Below are positions 3,719 through 29,427 of a stretch of 29,431 nt of DNA, piece after piece. The notes under the pieces were generated by a model. It was not told the origin of the DNA, made no database searches, and worked only from the letters and a program-made list of their open reading frames with translations. The position numbers and the translations under genes are program-made. How positions within the stretch are numbered: the stretch's first letter is position 1; the number at the start of each line of letters is the position of its first letter. This DNA comes from Candidatus Dadabacteria bacterium (GTDB taxonomy: Bacteria; Desulfobacterota_D; UBA1144; Nemesobacterales; JADFKM01): contig JADFKM010000022.1 in NCBI GenBank assembly GCA_022564935.1, positions 1 to 29,431 of the forward strand, given 5' to 3'.

Positions 3719-4297
3719 ATGGCCATAACCGTGAAAGTCATAAAGCCTCCGAAGCTGACCCTGCTCGAGAGGCTCTACATTCCGGAGATCCTGCGGGGAA
3801 TGTTCATTACTCTCAAACACTTAATCAGGTACAGGCCCATAACCATACAGTACCCTGAGGAGGTAAAGGAGCTTCCACCCCGTTACAGGGGACTCCACAT
3901 ACTGCCCGCAGACGACGAGGGGAAGATACGCTGCATAGCGTGCAAGCTGTGTGAGGTGGCGTGTCCCACTCAGGCTATTTCCATCGTGGCCATGGCCGCG
4001 GACGAATATGCGGTCGAGAGAAGTCCAAGTATATACAACATCGATTTTATGCGCTGCGTGTTCTGCGGTTTCTGTGTGGAAGCGTGCCCGTGCGACGCCC
4101 TCAGGATGGGTATGAAACACGAGCTCTCTTCATACAACAGGGCTGGCCTGGTGCACACAAAAGAGGTTTTCTTCGACCCGAACGTAAAGAGCGACGCCCC
4201 TAGGAACAACGCCAATTTCCTCTACTCCCACTCTATCGGAGACGTGCTTGACACCCCCGAAGACATTGCCAGCCTTGAGAGCGAGTCCGAGTATTAG
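3719..4297 (+). CDS. nuoI: NuoI-like protein with two [4Fe-4S] clusters (stand-alone)
   Basis: Matches the complex I subunit NuoI, which relays electrons through two [4Fe-4S] clusters from the peripheral arm toward quinone. Both ligand sets are intact: CIACKLCEVACP and CVFCGFCVEACP (CxxCxxCxxxCP). The N-terminal helix region (LLERLYIPEILRGMFITLKH) and the RYRGLHIL segment are typical of NuoI rather than a free bacterial ferredoxin. ATG 3719 is chosen over GTG 3707 because GGTGAG, which contains that GTG, sits about 7 bases upstream as the ribosome-binding site. The product is 192 residues, a little long because of an acidic C-terminal tail (DTPEDIASLESESEY). No other nuo gene is nearby; it is divergent from korAB. 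It may serve complex I from a distance or accept electrons from KorAB (inference). Confidence 0.85.
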   Translation: MAITVKVIKPPKLTLLERLYIPEILRGMFITLKHLIRYRPITIQYPEEVKELPPRYRGLHILPADDEGKIRCIACKLCEVACPTQAISIVAMAADEYAVERSPSIYNIDFMRCVFCGFCVEACPCDALRMGMKHELSSYNRAGLVHTKEVFFDPNVKSDAPRNNANFLYSHSIGDVLDTPEDIASLESESEY

Positions 4298-4396
4298 AAC
4301 GGCATCTGAATCCTGACTGCAGCACACACCCTTAATAACCCCATCTCTAAAAATGTAATGGGCGTATTAAAGACAGTTTCGAGGGGGTACATACCG

Positions 4397-5431
4397 ATGA
4401 AAGCTCTCGTGATTTACGAGCACGGCGGTGTTGACAAGCTTTGCTACGACGAGATCCCCGAGCCACCGATAAGGGACTCGGACGTGCTCGTCAAGGTGGA
4501 GGCCTGCGCAATGAACCACCTGGACGTGTGGGTGCGCAAGGGTCTGCCCCACCTGAAAATCGAATACCCCCATGTGCTCGGCTCGGATATCGCAGGCGTT
4601 GTCGAGAGAACCGGCAGGGACGTGCGGGGGATTGAGAAGGGGATGCGTGTCCTCGTGTCCCCGGGGGTCACGTGCGGGGTGTGCGAGCACTGCCTCGCCG
4701 GCAGGGACGACCTGTGCAGGGATTACAAGATCCTAGGCGAGAACATCCCCGGCGGGTGCGCGGAGTATGTAGCTGTGCCGAAGGAGAACATCCTGCCCAT
4801 GCCTGAGGGGCTCACCTCCGAAGAGGGAGCGGCAATCCCCCTCGTATACCTAACGGCGTGGCACATGGTGGTGGTGAGGGGGGGTATCAAGCCGGGCGAA
4901 ACTGTGCTCGTGCACGCAGCGGGGAGTGGTGTGGGGAGCGCGGCCATACAAATCGCCAAGCTGTACCACGCCATCGTCATCGCGACGGCCGGTACTAACA
5001 AGAAGGTCGAGAGGGCGAAGACGGAGCTCGGCGCAGACCACGGCATCAACTACAAGACACACGATTTCTCAAAGGAGATCCGGGCAATCACGGGCAAGAG
5101 AGGGGTGGACCTGATTATCGACCACACGGGTGAGGTGAACTGGCAGGGCAACATCCGCTCCCTTACGATGGGGGGCAGGCTCGTTATTTGCGGCGCCACC
5201 TCGGGGCATGAGGGGATGACCGACCTGAGGCATGTGTTCTTCAGGCGCCTCTCCATCCTCGGCTCCACCATGGGCAGCAAAGCCGACCTCCGCGAGGCGC
5301 TTAAGCATGTAAGCACGGGCAGGCTCAAGCCTGTGGTGTCGAAGGTGCTCGGCATGTCGGAGGCCGCTGAGGGGCACAGGCTGCTCGAGGAGCGCGACGT
5401 ATTCGGGAAAATTGTGCTCATACCGGACTGA
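4397..5431 (+). CDS. Zinc-containing alcohol dehydrogenase / quinone oxidoreductase-like (MDR superfamily)
   Basis: Medium-chain dehydrogenase/reductase of 344 residues that would oxidise an alcohol or reduce an enone with NAD(P)H in the cytoplasm. The N-terminal GroES-like domain has CAMNHLDVWVRKG and GSDIAGVVE. A structural-zinc lobe is present as C-x2-C-x2-C-x7-C (CGVCEHCLAGRDDLC preceded by Cys in GVTCG). The Rossmann fold follows with VLVHAAGSGVGSAAIQIAK. I start at ATG 4397 because GAGGGGG at 4381-4387 gives a ribosome-binding site about 9 bases away; an upstream in-frame ATG at 4358 would add 13 residues unlike the family N-terminus. It follows the nuoI-like gene by 99 bases in the same direction, so co-transcription is possible. 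Substrate unknown. Confidence 0.85.
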   Translation: MKALVIYEHGGVDKLCYDEIPEPPIRDSDVLVKVEACAMNHLDVWVRKGLPHLKIEYPHVLGSDIAGVVERTGRDVRGIEKGMRVLVSPGVTCGVCEHCLAGRDDLCRDYKILGENIPGGCAEYVAVPKENILPMPEGLTSEEGAAIPLVYLTAWHMVVVRGGIKPGETVLVHAAGSGVGSAAIQIAKLYHAIVIATAGTNKKVERAKTELGADHGINYKTHDFSKEIRAITGKRGVDLIIDHTGEVNWQGNIRSLTMGGRLVICGATSGHEGMTDLRHVFFRRLSILGSTMGSKADLREALKHVSTGRLKPVVSKVLGMSEAAEGHRLLEERDVFGKIVLIPD

Positions 5432-5560
5432 GATTGAAAGCCGTTGGTGTGATTTTTCCCACTCTTAACTTTTATCGACCTTTACTTAAGTAATTAAAAT
5501 CTTTGCTGAATTACTAGGTGTCATTGTAATAATTAATTAGCCAGAGGTAATCGACTAGAT

Positions 5561-6082
5561 ATGGGGAAAAACCCCAATCAACTTGGAAAACAATTGGCGG
5601 ACACAGCTGAGCGTCTATCTGCGGTGAGAATGAGCAATATAGATGAGATGGGAATCTACGGCCTACTTGTTGGTGCATTGTACGGTCTTAGCAAAGCAGT
5701 TGAGCTTGGCTATGTTGACCGCACAGGAACATCGTTACCTGTCGATTATTCCGGTGAGCTACGCCGAGTAGCCCAAGGACTTGTGACCTCAGACGAAGTT
5801 AATGATCGTGGCTGGCTCGCAGGATTCTACTTTAATTCAGCTCTTACAAGGCTCGCGCCTATATGTGAACGTCTTGGCAAGTACGCTGGAAAGCGTGAGG
5901 ATTTAATTCCGAGCATTCGGGAGGAGGTCAATCGCCTAAAACATGATACAAATGGAGTGCTCTGTGGCAGAACCGTTGGGTTGAGTGACGCGGTTGATGC
6001 AGCCTCAATGCTTGTGACAGCGGTAAGTATTGTGTTTATCTATCCAATTAAACCCCGAACCCCTCCTTGTACAACCCCCTAA
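5561..6082 (+). CDS. Hypothetical protein, AT-richer than its neighbours
   Basis: I do not recognise the family. The 173-residue product looks mainly helical and soluble, with a segment GLLVGALYGLSKAVELGYVD and, further on, GWLAGFYFNSALTRLAP and a charged REEVNRLKHD. Base and codon use are visibly AT-richer than the flanking genes, and the 130 bases upstream are also AT-rich, which suggests acquired DNA. The last 35 bases run tail-to-tail into the 3' end of the aldo/keto reductase gene, and the resulting C-terminus (YPIKPRTPPCTTP) looks unlike a natural protein end, so the original stop may have been lost. AGAGG lies about 13 bases before the ATG, a rather long spacing. A promoter such as TTGCTG-16-TGTAAT is possible upstream. 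Confidence 0.55.
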   Translation: MGKNPNQLGKQLADTAERLSAVRMSNIDEMGIYGLLVGALYGLSKAVELGYVDRTGTSLPVDYSGELRRVAQGLVTSDEVNDRGWLAGFYFNSALTRLAPICERLGKYAGKREDLIPSIREEVNRLKHDTNGVLCGRTVGLSDAVDAASMLVTAVSIVFIYPIKPRTPPCTTP

Positions 6083-6992
6083 GCTCCTCAAGCTCCTGCG
6101 CGCTCAGGCTCACCTCCGAGGCGGCTGTGTTCTCCTCAACCTGTGCCGTGGTCTTGGCGCCGGGTATCACCACCGATACCGCCGGGTGAGAGAGCGAAAA
6201 CCTGATTGCGGACTGAACCATCGTGCGTCCTGGCACTTCCAGGAACTTCACCCGCTCGTATTTCTTCACGCCACGCTCCAGATACTCCCTGCTCCAGCCG
6301 CGGCGGTGGTCTCTCTTGTGGAACGTGGAGTTTGCGCCGTATTTACCGGTGAGAAGCCCGCTCGCAAGCGGCTCACGAACTATAATTCCCACGTTGCGCT
6401 CAAGCGCCATGGGAAAAAGCTCCTCCTCCGGCTCCTGCTCGAAGATGCTGTAGGGAACCTGTATAGTGTCCGGCTCTACTCGTTTGAGTGCCTCAACGCC
6501 GTCGCCGCAATAGTTGGCAGAGATGCCCCAATACCTGATATACCCGCGGGATTTCAGCTCCTCCATGGTCTCAAACACGCCGTCGCTCTCAATGGCGTGG
6601 GGATTTGAGTTGTGAATCTGATAGATATCGATAGCGTCCCTGCGCAGACGCTTGAGGCTCTGCTCGACGGCGAAAAAGGCGTAGTCCCGGCTCATGTTCC
6701 CCCTCATCCCGCCCTCGCCGTAGAAGTCCCAGCCGAACTTCGTGGCTACGACGGTCTCAGTGTCTCCGCGCTCCTCAAGCACACTGCCTATAAGCTCCTC
6801 GCTGTGTCCGTCGCCGTAGGAGTCTGCGGTGTCGATGAAGTCGATGCCGAGGTCGAGGGCGAGGTGGAGCGCCGCCGTGGACTCCCCGTCTTTAGTCGGC
6901 CCGTATCCCCTGCCGCTTATGGCCCATGCGCCGAAACCGATCTCGGCGACTTCCAGGCCTGTTCTTCCAAGCGTGCGTTTCTTCATCCCCAT
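6048..6992 (-). CDS. Aldo/keto reductase
   Basis: Soluble NADPH-dependent TIM-barrel carbonyl reductase, 314 residues. The AKR catalytic tetrad is complete: Asp54 and Tyr59 in DTADSYG, Lys85 in ATKFGWD and His127 in YQIHNSN. The N-terminus (MKKRTLGRTGLEVAEIGFG) and the late cofactor-binding stretch VSVVIPGAKTTAQVEEN are typical of the YajO/'general stress protein 69'-like branch. Two closely spaced ATGs (6992 and 6986) are both possible. It lies in the same direction as the flavin oxidoreductase gene upstream but 156 bases apart. The physiological substrate is unknown. Confidence 0.9.
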   Translation of the reverse strand: MGMKKRTLGRTGLEVAEIGFGAWAISGRGYGPTKDGESTAALHLALDLGIDFIDTADSYGDGHSEELIGSVLEERGDTETVVATKFGWDFYGEGGMRGNMSRDYAFFAVEQSLKRLRRDAIDIYQIHNSNPHAIESDGVFETMEELKSRGYIRYWGISANYCGDGVEALKRVEPDTIQVPYSIFEQEPEEELFPMALERNVGIIVREPLASGLLTGKYGANSTFHKRDHRRGWSREYLERGVKKYERVKFLEVPGRTMVQSAIRFSLSHPAVSVVIPGAKTTAQVEENTAASEVSLSAQELEELRGLYKEGFGV

Positions 6993-26046: not shown

Positions 26047-26113
26047 AGGCGATTATATTAACATAGATTCTGTATCCGCTTATTTGTTTACGGGCATTTC
26101 CGAGCAGCTACGG

Positions 26114-26143
26114 TTGACTTTGATGCGTGATTTGTGAGATAAT
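26114..26143 (+). promoter_or_regulatory. Promoter of the ZU5/peptidase lipoprotein gene
   Basis: -35 TTGACT (26114-26119), spacer 18 bases, -10 GATAAT (26138-26143). The same boxes and spacing recur in the second copy while several spacer bases differ, which supports function. The leader would be about 125 nt. Confidence 0.75.
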
Positions 26144-26154
26144 GTGCAATTAAG

Positions 26155-26196
26155 GGCACGGAATAAATTGCCACTTGGCAATTATTGTCACGTGCC
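26155..26196 (+). promoter_or_regulatory. 42-nt leader hairpin, copy A
   Basis: Outer stem GGCACG/CGTGCC and inner stem ATTGCC/GGCAAT around the loop ACTT, with AATA facing TATT between them. It begins about 11 bases after the -10 box, in the untranslated leader. There is no U-run, so it is not a terminator. It could stabilise the mRNA or bind a regulator. Confidence 0.65.
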
Positions 26197-26274
26197 AGGC
26201 TGGTTCCCCATTAAGAAGTAGGGTGTGGTACGGCTATTCGGGCAATTAATCTAATTTGCTGAGGAGGGGATGTC

Positions 26275-28242
26275 ATGAGAAAGGTTTTAACTGTTGCAGG
26301 AGTTGTCCTGGCGATGGGATTTTTCCTCATAGCATGTGACAGTGGCGGCGGCCCGGCGGCAGACACCCGTATTGGAAGCGAAGGCGGCGTCATTACCAGC
26401 CCCGAAGGCACATTGACAATAATCATCCCCGAGGGAGCGCTTGCCGAGAGTGACGGGGTATTTGCGTTTGCCGTTCAAAGGTCCGGGGATACCAGCGGCG
26501 ATCTCGGAGATAAATTTGAAGCAACGCCTTCGGGTGTTCTATTTCGCGAGCCTATAACCCTTATATACAGCTTCGAGGATATCGATCTCGGCCCCGAAGG
26601 TACGACAAATCTGACCGTTGCCTTCTTTGGGGACGGCGTTGCAATACCGCTTGCGAGCACAGTGGACGAATCAGCTCAAACAGTCACCGCCCAGGTCACC
26701 CATCTGAGCACCTTCGGACTTGCCCGCTCCGAGCCGCTGCCTACGCGAGAAGAGGTGGCCGATTTGATAGTCGAAGGCTTCGTTCCCGCCCTGTGGAGCC
26801 CTATCGTGTTCGTTATGGGCCCCCTCGATCTCCTTAGTGCCGGTGACACGGTTGCGGAGCCTTTCGGAAAGGTCGGCCCATTCGGGGAGGACGATTCCGA
26901 GCTCCCTACGCGCGAACCCCCGACCGTCCACACTATCGAAAAGGACACCTGGTTCTTTTGGGTAGACCTGCTCCCGACCTCGGCTTTCGTGCATCCCAAT
27001 ATCTTTCTCTTTGTCGACCCCGATACCGGCACCTTCCTGGAAGTCGTGTCATTTTGGTGGCCCATTGTGAATGGAGTTCCGTTTATAACCGAAGTGAGGG
27101 ACAAATTCGAATCGGAGCTCACGGTCTACAACGCCTCAGATTTTTTGGAAACGCTGATAATCCCGCCGATAGTGGGAGAAGGGGGTGGGCCGTCCGTGCT
27201 CGAAACGAGCAGTGCGTTGGCTGAGCTACACTCTGTTTCCATATCTAGGACAAACGGCGATCAGGCCCCCGGTACCGGGACGAGTATTCTCATCCTCCAG
27301 GGTTCCCAGGATATGGAGGCGTTCAGGTCGGGCGGCGTTGCGGTTGAGAACTATATGACGAGCAATATCGGAGCCGACTTTCCGGCAAGCGACGTGTCCA
27401 GAAGGTCCGTCGAGGGGACTTCGGAGCTGCAGAGCGCCCTTGTACCCCTCATTAACCACGGTCGCTGGAGTGAAGTTGTGATCTATATCACCACCCATGG
27501 AGACGAAGACGGGATTAGCTTCACGGACGCTCAAGGGAACACCGACCAAGGCCCGGAGGGCAGCATGTCATGGGGACAGCTTCTTAATGGGCTCAATAAA
27601 ATCAAGGCCGATAAGTTCACCCTCGTCTTGGATGTATGTGAAGCGGGTGCGCTGGTAGACCTTATAAATGATAGGCGCAATACATTTGCCGGATTGGAGT
27701 TCCTGAGTCCGATGGCGGAGAATATTTTCGGGCCGTACGTATGTGCCGATATGAATATAATTTTCGCGGCTAAAAAGGGCAGAACGGCTTTTCAAGGCAT
27801 TCCGGAGTTGGGAACAGTATTATTCGGGCAGACCGAGCCTTTGAACTTTACCGACGAATGGCTGAAAGCCCTCGGGGATTCTGAAGACAAGAGAGACTGG
27901 TCCGGCGCCACGGACGATGTTATCGACTTATCGGAGGGTCTATTCGGTTTCAGTATTTTCAATTCGCTTCTCGCATGGTCTTCACCCGGACAGTTCTCTT
28001 TTTCCAAGATACCTTTTGATTTCGGGCAGGTCGAGCCCCCGCCTGGAATTTCGCCCCCTGAGCAAGGAACGGAACAAGATTGCGGCGACGGCATAGACAA
28101 TGACGGCGATGGCCAGACTGATTGCGCAGATACCCAGGATTGCGAGAGGAAGGCGTGTAGCATACATGGAAGGGAAGGCGGCGTTTGTGTGGGTGGCCAA
28201 TGTAGAAGTCCGCAAGAAGATGGAGGATCGGAATCGGAATAA
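26275..28242 (+). CDS. Lipoprotein with ZU5-like domain, clan CD (caspase/legumain-like) cysteine peptidase domain and Cys-rich Ca-binding-like tail
   Basis: A 655-residue exported protein. A lipoprotein signal peptide ends LIAC, so Cys21 would be acylated; Asp22 at position +2 is an inner-membrane retention signal in E. coli. Residues about 32-150 look like a ZU5 domain (IGSEGGVITSPEGTLTIIIP, then EGAL and a final THLSTFGLA). Residues about 340-480 resemble a clan CD peptidase: strand ILILQGSQD, helix ELQSALVPLI, strand plus His408 (VVIYITTHGDEDG), helix MSWGQLLNGLNKI, strand plus Cys455 (FTLVLDVCEAGA). The 47-residue His-Cys spacing fits the clan. After PPPGISPPEQG comes CGDGIDNDGDGQTDCADTQD (603-622), a D-x-D-x-D-G acidic loop, and a further Cys-rich piece. 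ATG 26275 follows GGAGGGG. Peptidase activity is inferred, not shown. Confidence 0.75.
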   Translation: MRKVLTVAGVVLAMGFFLIACDSGGGPAADTRIGSEGGVITSPEGTLTIIIPEGALAESDGVFAFAVQRSGDTSGDLGDKFEATPSGVLFREPITLIYSFEDIDLGPEGTTNLTVAFFGDGVAIPLASTVDESAQTVTAQVTHLSTFGLARSEPLPTREEVADLIVEGFVPALWSPIVFVMGPLDLLSAGDTVAEPFGKVGPFGEDDSELPTREPPTVHTIEKDTWFFWVDLLPTSAFVHPNIFLFVDPDTGTFLEVVSFWWPIVNGVPFITEVRDKFESELTVYNASDFLETLIIPPIVGEGGGPSVLETSSALAELHSVSISRTNGDQAPGTGTSILILQGSQDMEAFRSGGVAVENYMTSNIGADFPASDVSRRSVEGTSELQSALVPLINHGRWSEVVIYITTHGDEDGISFTDAQGNTDQGPEGSMSWGQLLNGLNKIKADKFTLVLDVCEAGALVDLINDRRNTFAGLEFLSPMAENIFGPYVCADMNIIFAAKKGRTAFQGIPELGTVLFGQTEPLNFTDEWLKALGDSEDKRDWSGATDDVIDLSEGLFGFSIFNSLLAWSSPGQFSFSKIPFDFGQVEPPPGISPPEQGTEQDCGDGIDNDGDGQTDCADTQDCERKACSIHGREGGVCVGGQCRSPQEDGGSESE

Positions 28243-28307
28243 CGTAGACAGCCGTTTTTTGGGCGGCAGGCGACTGCAGTGCGCTATTAATGCTGTGACC
28301 TTGCCGG

Positions 28308-28337
28308 TTGACTTTGCTGCTTGAGTTATGAGATAAT
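28308..28337 (+). promoter_or_regulatory. Promoter of the second ZU5 lipoprotein gene
   Basis: -35 TTGACT (28308-28313) and -10 GATAAT (28332-28337), again 18 bases apart, identical to copy A in both boxes. The leader is about 145 nt because of the 20-base insertion. Confidence 0.75.
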
Positions 28338-28348
28338 AGGATATTAAT

Positions 28349-28390
28349 GGCACGAAATAAATTGTCACTTAGCAATTATTATCGCGTGCC
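28349..28390 (+). promoter_or_regulatory. 42-nt leader hairpin, copy B
   Basis: Same length as copy A. The outer stem GGCACG/CGTGCC is fully kept and ATTG/CAAT still pairs. The top of the inner stem is weakened (one T-G wobble, one C-A mismatch). Five bases differ from copy A, none in the outer stem. Confidence 0.6.
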
Positions 28391-28488
28391 AAGCTGGTTC
28401 CCAGTTAAGAAGTAGGGTGTGGTACGGCTATTAGGGCTGTCCCGGTACTTTCCGGGCAATTAATCTAATTAGCTGATGAGGGGAAGTC

Positions 28489-29427
28489 ATGAGAAAGGTT
28501 TTAACTGTAGCAGGAGTTTTACTTATATCGGCGCTTGTTCTAACTACGTGTGACGGCGGCGGGCCGGGTAATGAGGTCAGCGCGAGCATCGGCCCGGACG
28601 GGGGCACTATAACGAGCTCCGACGGGAAGCTCACGCTCACCTTCCCCGCGGGCGCGCTGGGCGAGGAGACAACCATTGTTATCAGAGTCCTCGACCCCGA
28701 TAATTTGCCGCCCGAATTTGCAGACTTAGAAGGGGACCTTGCGTATGAGCTTCTGCCCGACGGCCTTGAGTTCGCTGTGCCCGTGACGGCGACCGTCCCT
28801 CTCGATGACCCGCCCGTGCAGCCCGACGGCAGCTTGTCCACACAATTCGCACTTCTTCTCACTTCCATAGATGGGGTAATTGTACCCCTAGACAACCAGC
28901 TGGTTTTAGCTAACGCCGAAACCAATACGGCAACCGTTACGGGAGAGCTGAGCCATTTTTCTTTATTAGAAAGGATAACGACAAGTCTAGAGGTGACTCT
29001 CTTCAGGGTTCCTGAGTGTGTCGCCGTTGGGGAGCCCTTTATCATAATTGTCGAGCTTATCAATCCGAATCCTGGTTTTATTAATATTCTTAGTGTTGAA
29101 TATAATGATTTTTCAGATATACCCCCCATAAATATAATCGATGAAAAAAAGGGGGATTTAATCAACGAAACTGCTGACGAAATCGCTCCTGAAAAACAAT
29201 CTTTTTTCAAAACACTCGAGTACACTTGCGACCCGAGAGGTACCGGCGAGCTAACAGTTTTTTTAACTTTTTTCTTTGATATTAATTCTGATTTTGCGAA
29301 AAAAACAAACACGATGGTAAGTGTGACAGGACACACGGAAATAGTCACATGCCCCTGCCCACCTGATGTCCAACCTCCTCCCCCCCCCCCCCCCCCCCTT
29401 CCGTCGGACCTGCCCGCCGCACACTAG
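28489..29427 (+). CDS. Lipoprotein with ZU5-like domain, paralogue of the preceding gene, Pro-rich tail
   Basis: A 312-residue exported protein. The signal peptide shares MRKVLTVAGV with the upstream gene and ends LTTC (Cys21; Thr at -1 is not ideal for signal peptidase II), again with Asp at +2. Residues about 33-165 form a ZU5-like domain (SIGPDGGTITSSDGKLTLTF then PAGALGEETTI, ending ELSHFSLL). Residues about 170-285 look beta-rich and Ig/CARDB-like (LEVTLFRVPECVAVGEPFII) with few cysteines. There is no peptidase domain. The end is TCPCPPDVQ plus a run of prolines encoded by a 19-base C tract, then LPSDLPAAH and TAG. The second half is clearly AT-richer than the first. ATG 28489 follows GAGGGGAAG. 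The function is unknown; the end depends on the exact C-tract length. Confidence 0.75.
   Translation: MRKVLTVAGVLLISALVLTTCDGGGPGNEVSASIGPDGGTITSSDGKLTLTFPAGALGEETTIVIRVLDPDNLPPEFADLEGDLAYELLPDGLEFAVPVTATVPLDDPPVQPDGSLSTQFALLLTSIDGVIVPLDNQLVLANAETNTATVTGELSHFSLLERITTSLEVTLFRVPECVAVGEPFIIIVELINPNPGFINILSVEYNDFSDIPPINIIDEKKGDLINETADEIAPEKQSFFKTLEYTCDPRGTGELTVFLTFFFDINSDFAKKTNTMVSVTGHTEIVTCPCPPDVQPPPPPPPPLPSDLPAAH
29380..29398 (+). repeat. 19-base poly-C homopolymer inside a coding region
   Basis: An uninterrupted run of 19 C residues near the 3' end of the second lipoprotein gene, coding for prolines. In the present frame TAG follows at 29425. Both other frames are open from the tract to the window end. 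Such tracts slip readily during replication and are also prone to sequencing error. Confidence 0.9.

Follow-up and report, generated by a model that had tools for sequence, protein, structure and literature searches.

P0001, a lipoprotein of 655 residues, is probably the precursor form of a legumain-like cysteine peptidase (C13, clan CD), exported and anchored by a lipid; the module at residues 156-275 would serve as a pro-domain, and the mature enzyme could be released from the precursor. This reading is drawn from sequence comparison and structure prediction. From its N-terminus, P0001 is made up of a lipidated Cys21, a ZU5-like domain, an undescribed module (about 115 residues), a peptidase, and a calcium-binding-type cysteine-rich tail (Table 1). 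The preliminary description knew of no described bacterial protein with this domain order, and we found the order in no other protein examined.

The open reading frame, the lipobox (L18-I-A-C21), the ZU5-like block, the motifs T407-H408-G409 and D453-V454-C455-E456-A457-G458, and the acidic cysteine loop (CGDGIDNDGDGQTDC, from C603) all lie at the positions which that description gave, and the lipobox favors the membrane-tethered export that it proposed. It assigned no domain to residues 155-330, which proved to be the most informative part of P0001.

Table 1 Features of the P0001 gene, its product and the neighboring lipoprotein gene, in window coordinates.
Feature	Coordinates	Strand	Basis
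P0001, 655-aa predicted lipoprotein peptidase	26275..28242	+	ORF and translation
Signal peptide and lipobox LIAC, Cys21	26275..26337	+	Sequence; Cys21 invariant in six ZU5-like lipoproteins of the order
ZU5-like domain, residues 30-150	26362..26724	+	Sub-cut-off Pfam match and family profile
H143-L144-S145 tripeptide, end of ZU5-like domain	26701..26709	+	Family alignment; likened to HFS of PIDD/Nup98 (PMC3210808)
Undescribed module, residues 156-275	26740..27099	+	Profile searches and alignment of modules
Legumain-like (clan CD) peptidase core, about residues 334-520	27274..27834	+	Profile, conservation, fold model
Catalytic His408 (predicted)	27496..27498	+	Motif and conservation
Catalytic Cys455 (predicted)	27637..27639	+	Motif and conservation
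Calcium-binding-type cysteine-rich repeat, residues 599-631	28069..28167	+	NF033662, teneurin-4 7plp, ligands from PMC9058538
Promoter-like site TTGACT-18-GATAAT, TG ahead of second hexamer	26114..26143	+	Consensus match only
Leader, about 130 nt, with GGCACG...CGTGCC hairpin; duplicate upstream of neighboring lipoprotein gene	26144..26274	+	Alignment
Paralogous ZU5-like lipoprotein, no peptidase, tripeptide H-F-S	28489..29427	+	ORF, profile, alignment

The ZU5-like domain and its tripeptide

A ZU5-like block is present where the preliminary description placed it (about residues 30-150), but Pfam ZU5 (PF00791) matches residues 32-62 only and scores below its cut-off of 21, with 12.6 bits for the whole protein and 16.8 bits for the isolated domain. 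The paralogue at 28489-29427 is also below the cut-off (17.9 bits), and a domain from the same taxonomic order (L020) is above it (24.2 bits). Among the module proteins examined, the fusion to a ZU5-like domain is confined to P0001, and a search of the others for the full domain order with a ZU5 profile gave no convincing ZU5-like domain. Four further genomes of the order, each from another genus, encode one full-length ZU5-like lipoprotein apiece; in none of the four is a peptidase fused to it, and the flanks of these genes contain no such peptidase gene.

All six ZU5-like lipoproteins (the pair in the window and L024-L027) carry Asp, Asn or Glu directly after the lipidated Cys. In E. coli, Asp at position +2 after the lipidated Cys leads to retention in the inner membrane. 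By analogy, the Asp at +2 of P0001 suggests inner-membrane retention rather than surface exposure, although the E. coli rule is perhaps invalid here.

The domain ends in H-L-S, which has the form H/S-[F/L]-S seen in self-cleaving ZU5/GPS domains; GPS, too, has Leu at the middle position of its tripeptide. PIDD and Nup98 autocleave at HFS, which occupies the same end of the ZU5-like domain (PMC3210808), and toxins and surface proteins of bacteria were proposed by Zhang et al. to contain ZU5 autopeptidases (PMC3482391). Self-cleavage of the P0001 domain between L144 and S145 is accordingly put forward here as a tentative reading, somewhat on the doubtful side. A rival to this one step, that H-[FL]-S has a structural role, is left uncut and marks a passive stalk, has a chance not far short of even. 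Non-cleaving ZU5 domains are known, as in UNC5b with Leu677 at the Phe position (PMC3210808), and the weak Pfam coverage of the whole domain is consistent with a passive role. Furthermore, five more divergent bacterial ZU5-like domains have xLG in place of the tripeptide, so that the tripeptide may be structural or may have been lost. Conservation argues the other way. Despite only 24-32% identity to P0001, the six lipoproteins of the order (P0001, the paralogue and four others) keep H143 and S145 invariant, and H-[FL]-[ST] occurs in 13 of the 13 distinct domains that can be aligned to that point, other phyla included. Two more domains, read by eye, have HFT (L046) and HFS (L055).

The module at residues 156-275

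Residues 25-595, searched against 386 diverse genomes, returned three matches, all confined to about residues 212-272. P0001 and the three matches have in common WF..(W/F/Y).D..P...(F/Y).H....F..(V/T)D...G........WP, and in two of the three matches the same protein includes a peptidase as well, marked by GHG and SCHSG. The wider consensus of the module is WFFWVD..P...F.HP..F.FVD..TG........WWP..NG, with a conserved core spanning W226-G267; over 20 aligned modules, His240 forms the single invariant column and Asp231 is nearly invariant.

The association with peptidases is no product of the query, since the searches that extended the family used the module alone. A contig scan gave six loci (two archaeal and one each from Bipolaricaulota, Deltaproteobacteria, Myxococcota and Thermodesulfobacteriota), and in each the module is followed within one protein by a clan CD-type domain; that of Bipolaricaulota is degenerate. 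A whole-genome search added twelve more sites, the weakest at E 0.005; at every one the module is followed by a His part and then a Cys motif, in one of them (L071) across a frame change. Counted in the same protein, or in the next gene for genome G128, the His...xCx(S/A/G)G signature is intact in 20 of 22 module proteins, with 0.95 expected from shuffled sequences; the non-greedy pattern used for the count took an earlier His in P0001 and a few others, and catalytic pairs were assigned separately. Two added module proteins, L097 and L100, also have the signature and bring the count to 22 of 24; the number of independent cases is slightly lower because L083 and L085 are near-identical. The exceptions are the degenerate L084 and the frame-split L071, whose open reading frame breaks just before the Cys strand, with DACHSG in another frame. 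The sensitive search covers about 390 genomes out of tens of thousands, with one genome for the phylum of G057, and the contig scan depends on short patterns.

Wherever module and peptidase share one chain, the module is N-terminal. Residues 157-470 of P0001 are colinear with archaeal L085 across both the module and the peptidase core (BLASTP E 8e-14), indicating joint inheritance or transfer of the two. In G128, the module is a secreted protein of 156 residues with its own gene (L064:5236-5703), which is overlapped by 4 bp (GTGA) by the peptidase gene (L064:5703-7364); the product of the latter is secreted and has AHG, NSCYSG and TSP3 calcium repeats. This free-standing module, translationally coupled to a clan CD peptidase, provides a natural test pair.

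Comparison of the module with Pfam and PDB sequences returned no family or structure that accounts for it, and no known inhibitor or propeptide; the role proposed for it is therefore drawn from its association with peptidases alone. The PepSY propeptide (PF03413) matched one of 20 modules weakly (E 0.33) and none of the other 19, and a PepSY identity for the module was set aside as unproven. A tblastn search of plasmids with the module region gave no match, nor did scans of viral contigs with the module and module-plus-peptidase alignments. The module and its tie to prokaryotic legumain-like peptidases are not described in the limited set of sources searched.

We regard the chance that the module inhibits the peptidase as about even. 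A rather unlikely alternative to the pro-domain is a module that only binds substrates or surfaces, as an exosite or docking domain, or only chaperones folding, next to a peptidase that is always active and breaks down extracellular or periplasmic protein as a nutrient source. Many homologues are indeed plain secreted proteins with adhesion-type C-termini (L072-L079), several have a long segment between module and peptidase (L048, L053 and L086-L088; GEVED-like in L066), and the lack of inhibitor homology fits this view as well. However, the N-terminal position, the invariant His, the near-invariant Asp and the coupled separate gene fit a partner that acts on the peptidase at least as well.

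Peptidase core and cysteine-rich tail

The preliminary description called the peptidase caspase- or legumain-like. Its assignment to clan CD holds, but it missed that legumain (C13) is nearer than the caspases. A profile of the 13 aligned members matched human legumain at E 4.4e-12, and one built from the four nearest sequences reached human legumain at E 5.6e-5, against E 0.0037 for metacaspase-4. Peptidase_C13 (PF01650) was matched by 11 of the 13 members at E <= 0.5, the best at 3.3e-14. P0001 by itself scored 12.9-15.6 bits against PF01650 (14.9 on the isolated piece), below the curated cut-off of 22.8, and is for this reason called legumain-like and not a curated C13 member. The caspase family C14 (PF00656) gave no match for P0001 up to E 1 or for the 13 members up to E 0.5, and an NCBIfam search of P0001 returned the caspase family only as a trace. 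C11, C25 and C80 peptidases were absent from the sequence matches, which leaves room for similarity in fold. Judged by these profiles, the P0001 peptidase is closer to legumain than to caspases; it is a divergent legumain-like enzyme, of an already known kind.

The first proposal, that P0001 has a clan CD peptidase whose His/Cys pair is intact, is borne out by conservation and by the fold model; neither of the two checks that the preliminary description named as able to refute it, one on fold and one on conservation, went against it. His408 and Cys455 are both invariant in the 13 aligned homologues, and together with G409 and G458 they make up the only invariant columns of that alignment, which leaves out the degenerate L084. 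Modeling with AlphaFold on nine aligned rows gave a caspase/haemoglobinase fold at moderate confidence (mean pLDDT 52.9, core blocks mostly 50-80). A single-sequence model of the whole of P0001 (pLDDT 35.7) was used for secondary structure only. Both models place a strand before His408 and another before Cys455, as expected of clan CD, in which the His ends beta-3 and the Cys ends beta-4. The best fold matches were Raptor (Z 10.8), caspase-1 (Z 9.6, rmsd 3.0 over 113 aligned positions, model residues 184-351) and legumain (Z 9.2; plant legumain 5obt, rmsd 3.5 over 138 aligned positions, model residues 182-377). Foldseek matches are dominated by MALT1 and caspases; its first-ranked hit, 8txr (ExoVII), was rejected as spurious (rmsd 44.5).

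P0001 is very likely proteolytically active. That its clan CD domain is instead a pseudopeptidase or scaffold, kept for binding without catalysis, appears improbable: H408, G409, C455 and G458 are all intact, and E456 aligns in the profile with the Glu that follows the catalytic Cys of legumain. Loss of catalysis does occur in one homologue, the Bipolaricaulota protein L084, so that the family fold is not always catalytic. Its open reading frame (4044-6260) has CHAS for HG and DTGFGG for DxCxxG; the catalytic Cys and the HG glycine are gone, the module is kept, and the protein is a probable pseudopeptidase.

Searches with the peptidase alone yielded nothing in a pattern-seeded contig scan, whose patterns sat on unconserved stretches, and tblastn against plasmids and phages gave no match. 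In two other genera of the order, secreted proteins about 300 aa long (L013 in G029 and L016 in G015) lack the module but have a legumain/caspase-like signature, HGD...DACH(S/A)G.

The cysteine-rich tail matches the acidic double-disulfide repeat NF033662 of NCBIfam at residues 598-625 in one copy (30 bits, E 3.1e-7), short of the curated cut-off of 41. The calcium-binding tail of the preliminary description gains from homology to the C-rich domain of teneurin-4, to which residues 599-631 align without gaps (7plp, E 0.0018) and whose crystal structure contains three bound Ca2+ (PMC9058538). Seven of the eight acidic ligands of teneurin-4 are kept in P0001, plus the Asn (N844): the kept residues are E600, D605, D608, N609, D610, D612, D616 and D619, and Q621 replaces D856. 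Calcium binding by the tail is supported by this comparison, and control of the activity of P0001 by calcium is a possibility that we would put forward with reserve.

In seven homologues (L072, L074-L076, L078, L079 and L082) the Cys is followed by an EF-hand-like DxNxDGxxxxxE loop, and most of these peptidases have a DLDGDGDDD-type loop before the His; such loops are possible built-in calcium sites in this branch. Several acidic double-disulfide repeats also occur in a large surface protein of the source genome (L003; G000:C73:16546-19698, reverse strand), which ends in a sorting-signal-like GGCAIAS...hydrophobic...RRRE; a similar end is found in L005.

Genomic setting, mechanism and known systems

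The window, the whole stretch of 29,431 nucleotides analyzed here, is one contig of a 2.0 Mb assembly in 104 contigs, and its source genome is the sole member of its family among the genomes searched. The genes upstream of P0001 look ordinary (thrS-, infC- and rplT-like genes, a glycosyltransferase and an endonuclease III-like gene, named by eye). About 190 bp upstream of both lipoprotein genes are 79-81% identical and occur nowhere else in the genome. These duplicates (26110-26280 and 28305-28494) each comprise a leader of about 130-150 nt with a conserved hairpin, and the TTGACT-18-GATAAT site recurs at 28308-28337, ahead of the neighboring lipoprotein gene. The duplicated upstream regions, with the same promoter-like site and the conserved hairpin, suggest that the two genes are co-regulated. 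Compensatory base changes in the hairpin were considered and rejected on the alignment, in which the tip pair is broken and the next pair changes to G-U. Rfam gave no convincing family for the shared leader.

This setting bears on the least probable of the alternatives, a caspase/PIDD-like effector of cell death or defense in which ZU5 processing triggers the protease. Bacterial conflict systems in which ZU5 and caspase-like domains occur together have been described (PMC3482391, PMC8195603), but no NTPase, death-like, toxin or immunity gene adjoins P0001, whose neighbors are housekeeping genes and the lipoprotein paralogue; moreover, P0001 is exported, its peptidase is nearer to legumain than to caspases, and the module-peptidase family is widespread without ZU5. 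We consider such a function highly improbable.

In the lipid-anchored precursor that we favor, P0001 would be exported as a zymogen and held in the membrane by its lipid. The module would act as a built-in pro-domain that aids folding of the peptidase and covers the active site until it is cleaved or displaced; it would do so in cis in most relatives and as a separate, co-expressed protein in G128. In the lineage of P0001, the module-peptidase unit would have become fused to a ZU5-like lipoprotein akin to the product of the next-door gene. Self-cleavage at L144/S145 could then leave the peptidase non-covalently on its anchor, making release possible, and calcium would stabilize the tail. The broadest form of this proposal, which we think rather less likely than otherwise to hold, is that residues 156-275 represent a family of dedicated pro-domains or inhibitors of bacterial and archaeal legumain-like peptidases, acting in cis and in trans, and that with a self-cleaving ZU5 stalk, release, unmasking and calcium would form separate switches.

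Little is understood about the legumain- and caspase-type peptidases that uncultured bacteria and archaea secrete, including how these are silenced during export. The module is a small and specific candidate for such control, and its distribution suggests a putative shared on/off control across many bacteria and some archaea. The H-L-S stalk and its H-F-S paralogue furthermore offer a simple bacterial setting for asking whether ZU5 self-cleavage of the PIDD type also operates in lipoproteins.

Among known enzymes, legumain (C13, PF01650) shares with P0001 the His-Gly and Cys-Glu-x-Gly motifs in the same order and, in the model, the caspase/haemoglobinase fold. P0001 differs in being a prokaryotic lipoprotein with an N-terminal module and a cysteine-rich calcium-type tail, and no legumain-type C-terminal prodomain was recognized in it. 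Gingipain RgpB (C25), like P0001 an exported bacterial clan CD peptidase with a domain ahead of the catalytic one, has an inhibitory N-terminal prodomain and calcium sites (PMC4357240). This prodomain is the precedent for reading the module as an inhibitory pro-domain, although its 229 residues were not found by a profile search with the module. Bacterial metacaspases and orthocaspases (C14B), some with an N-terminal membrane or signal segment (PMC3501461), share the clan CD fold, whereas P0001 has no C14 Pfam match, and the profile of its nearest sequences matches metacaspase-4 more weakly than legumain.

The remaining domains can be compared in the same manner. The ZU5 domains of PIDD/FIIND, as well as GPS/GAIN, have H-[FL]-S at the C-terminus of a ZU5-like domain in common with P0001, the middle residue being Leu in P0001 as in GPS and Phe in its paralogues as in PIDD; the P0001 domain differs in being below the Pfam cut-off, and no UPA domain was recognized after it. 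The tail has the CGDxxDNDGDGxxDCxD core of the teneurin-4 C-rich domain and of NF033662, from which it differs in being a single copy and in the spacing of the later cysteines.
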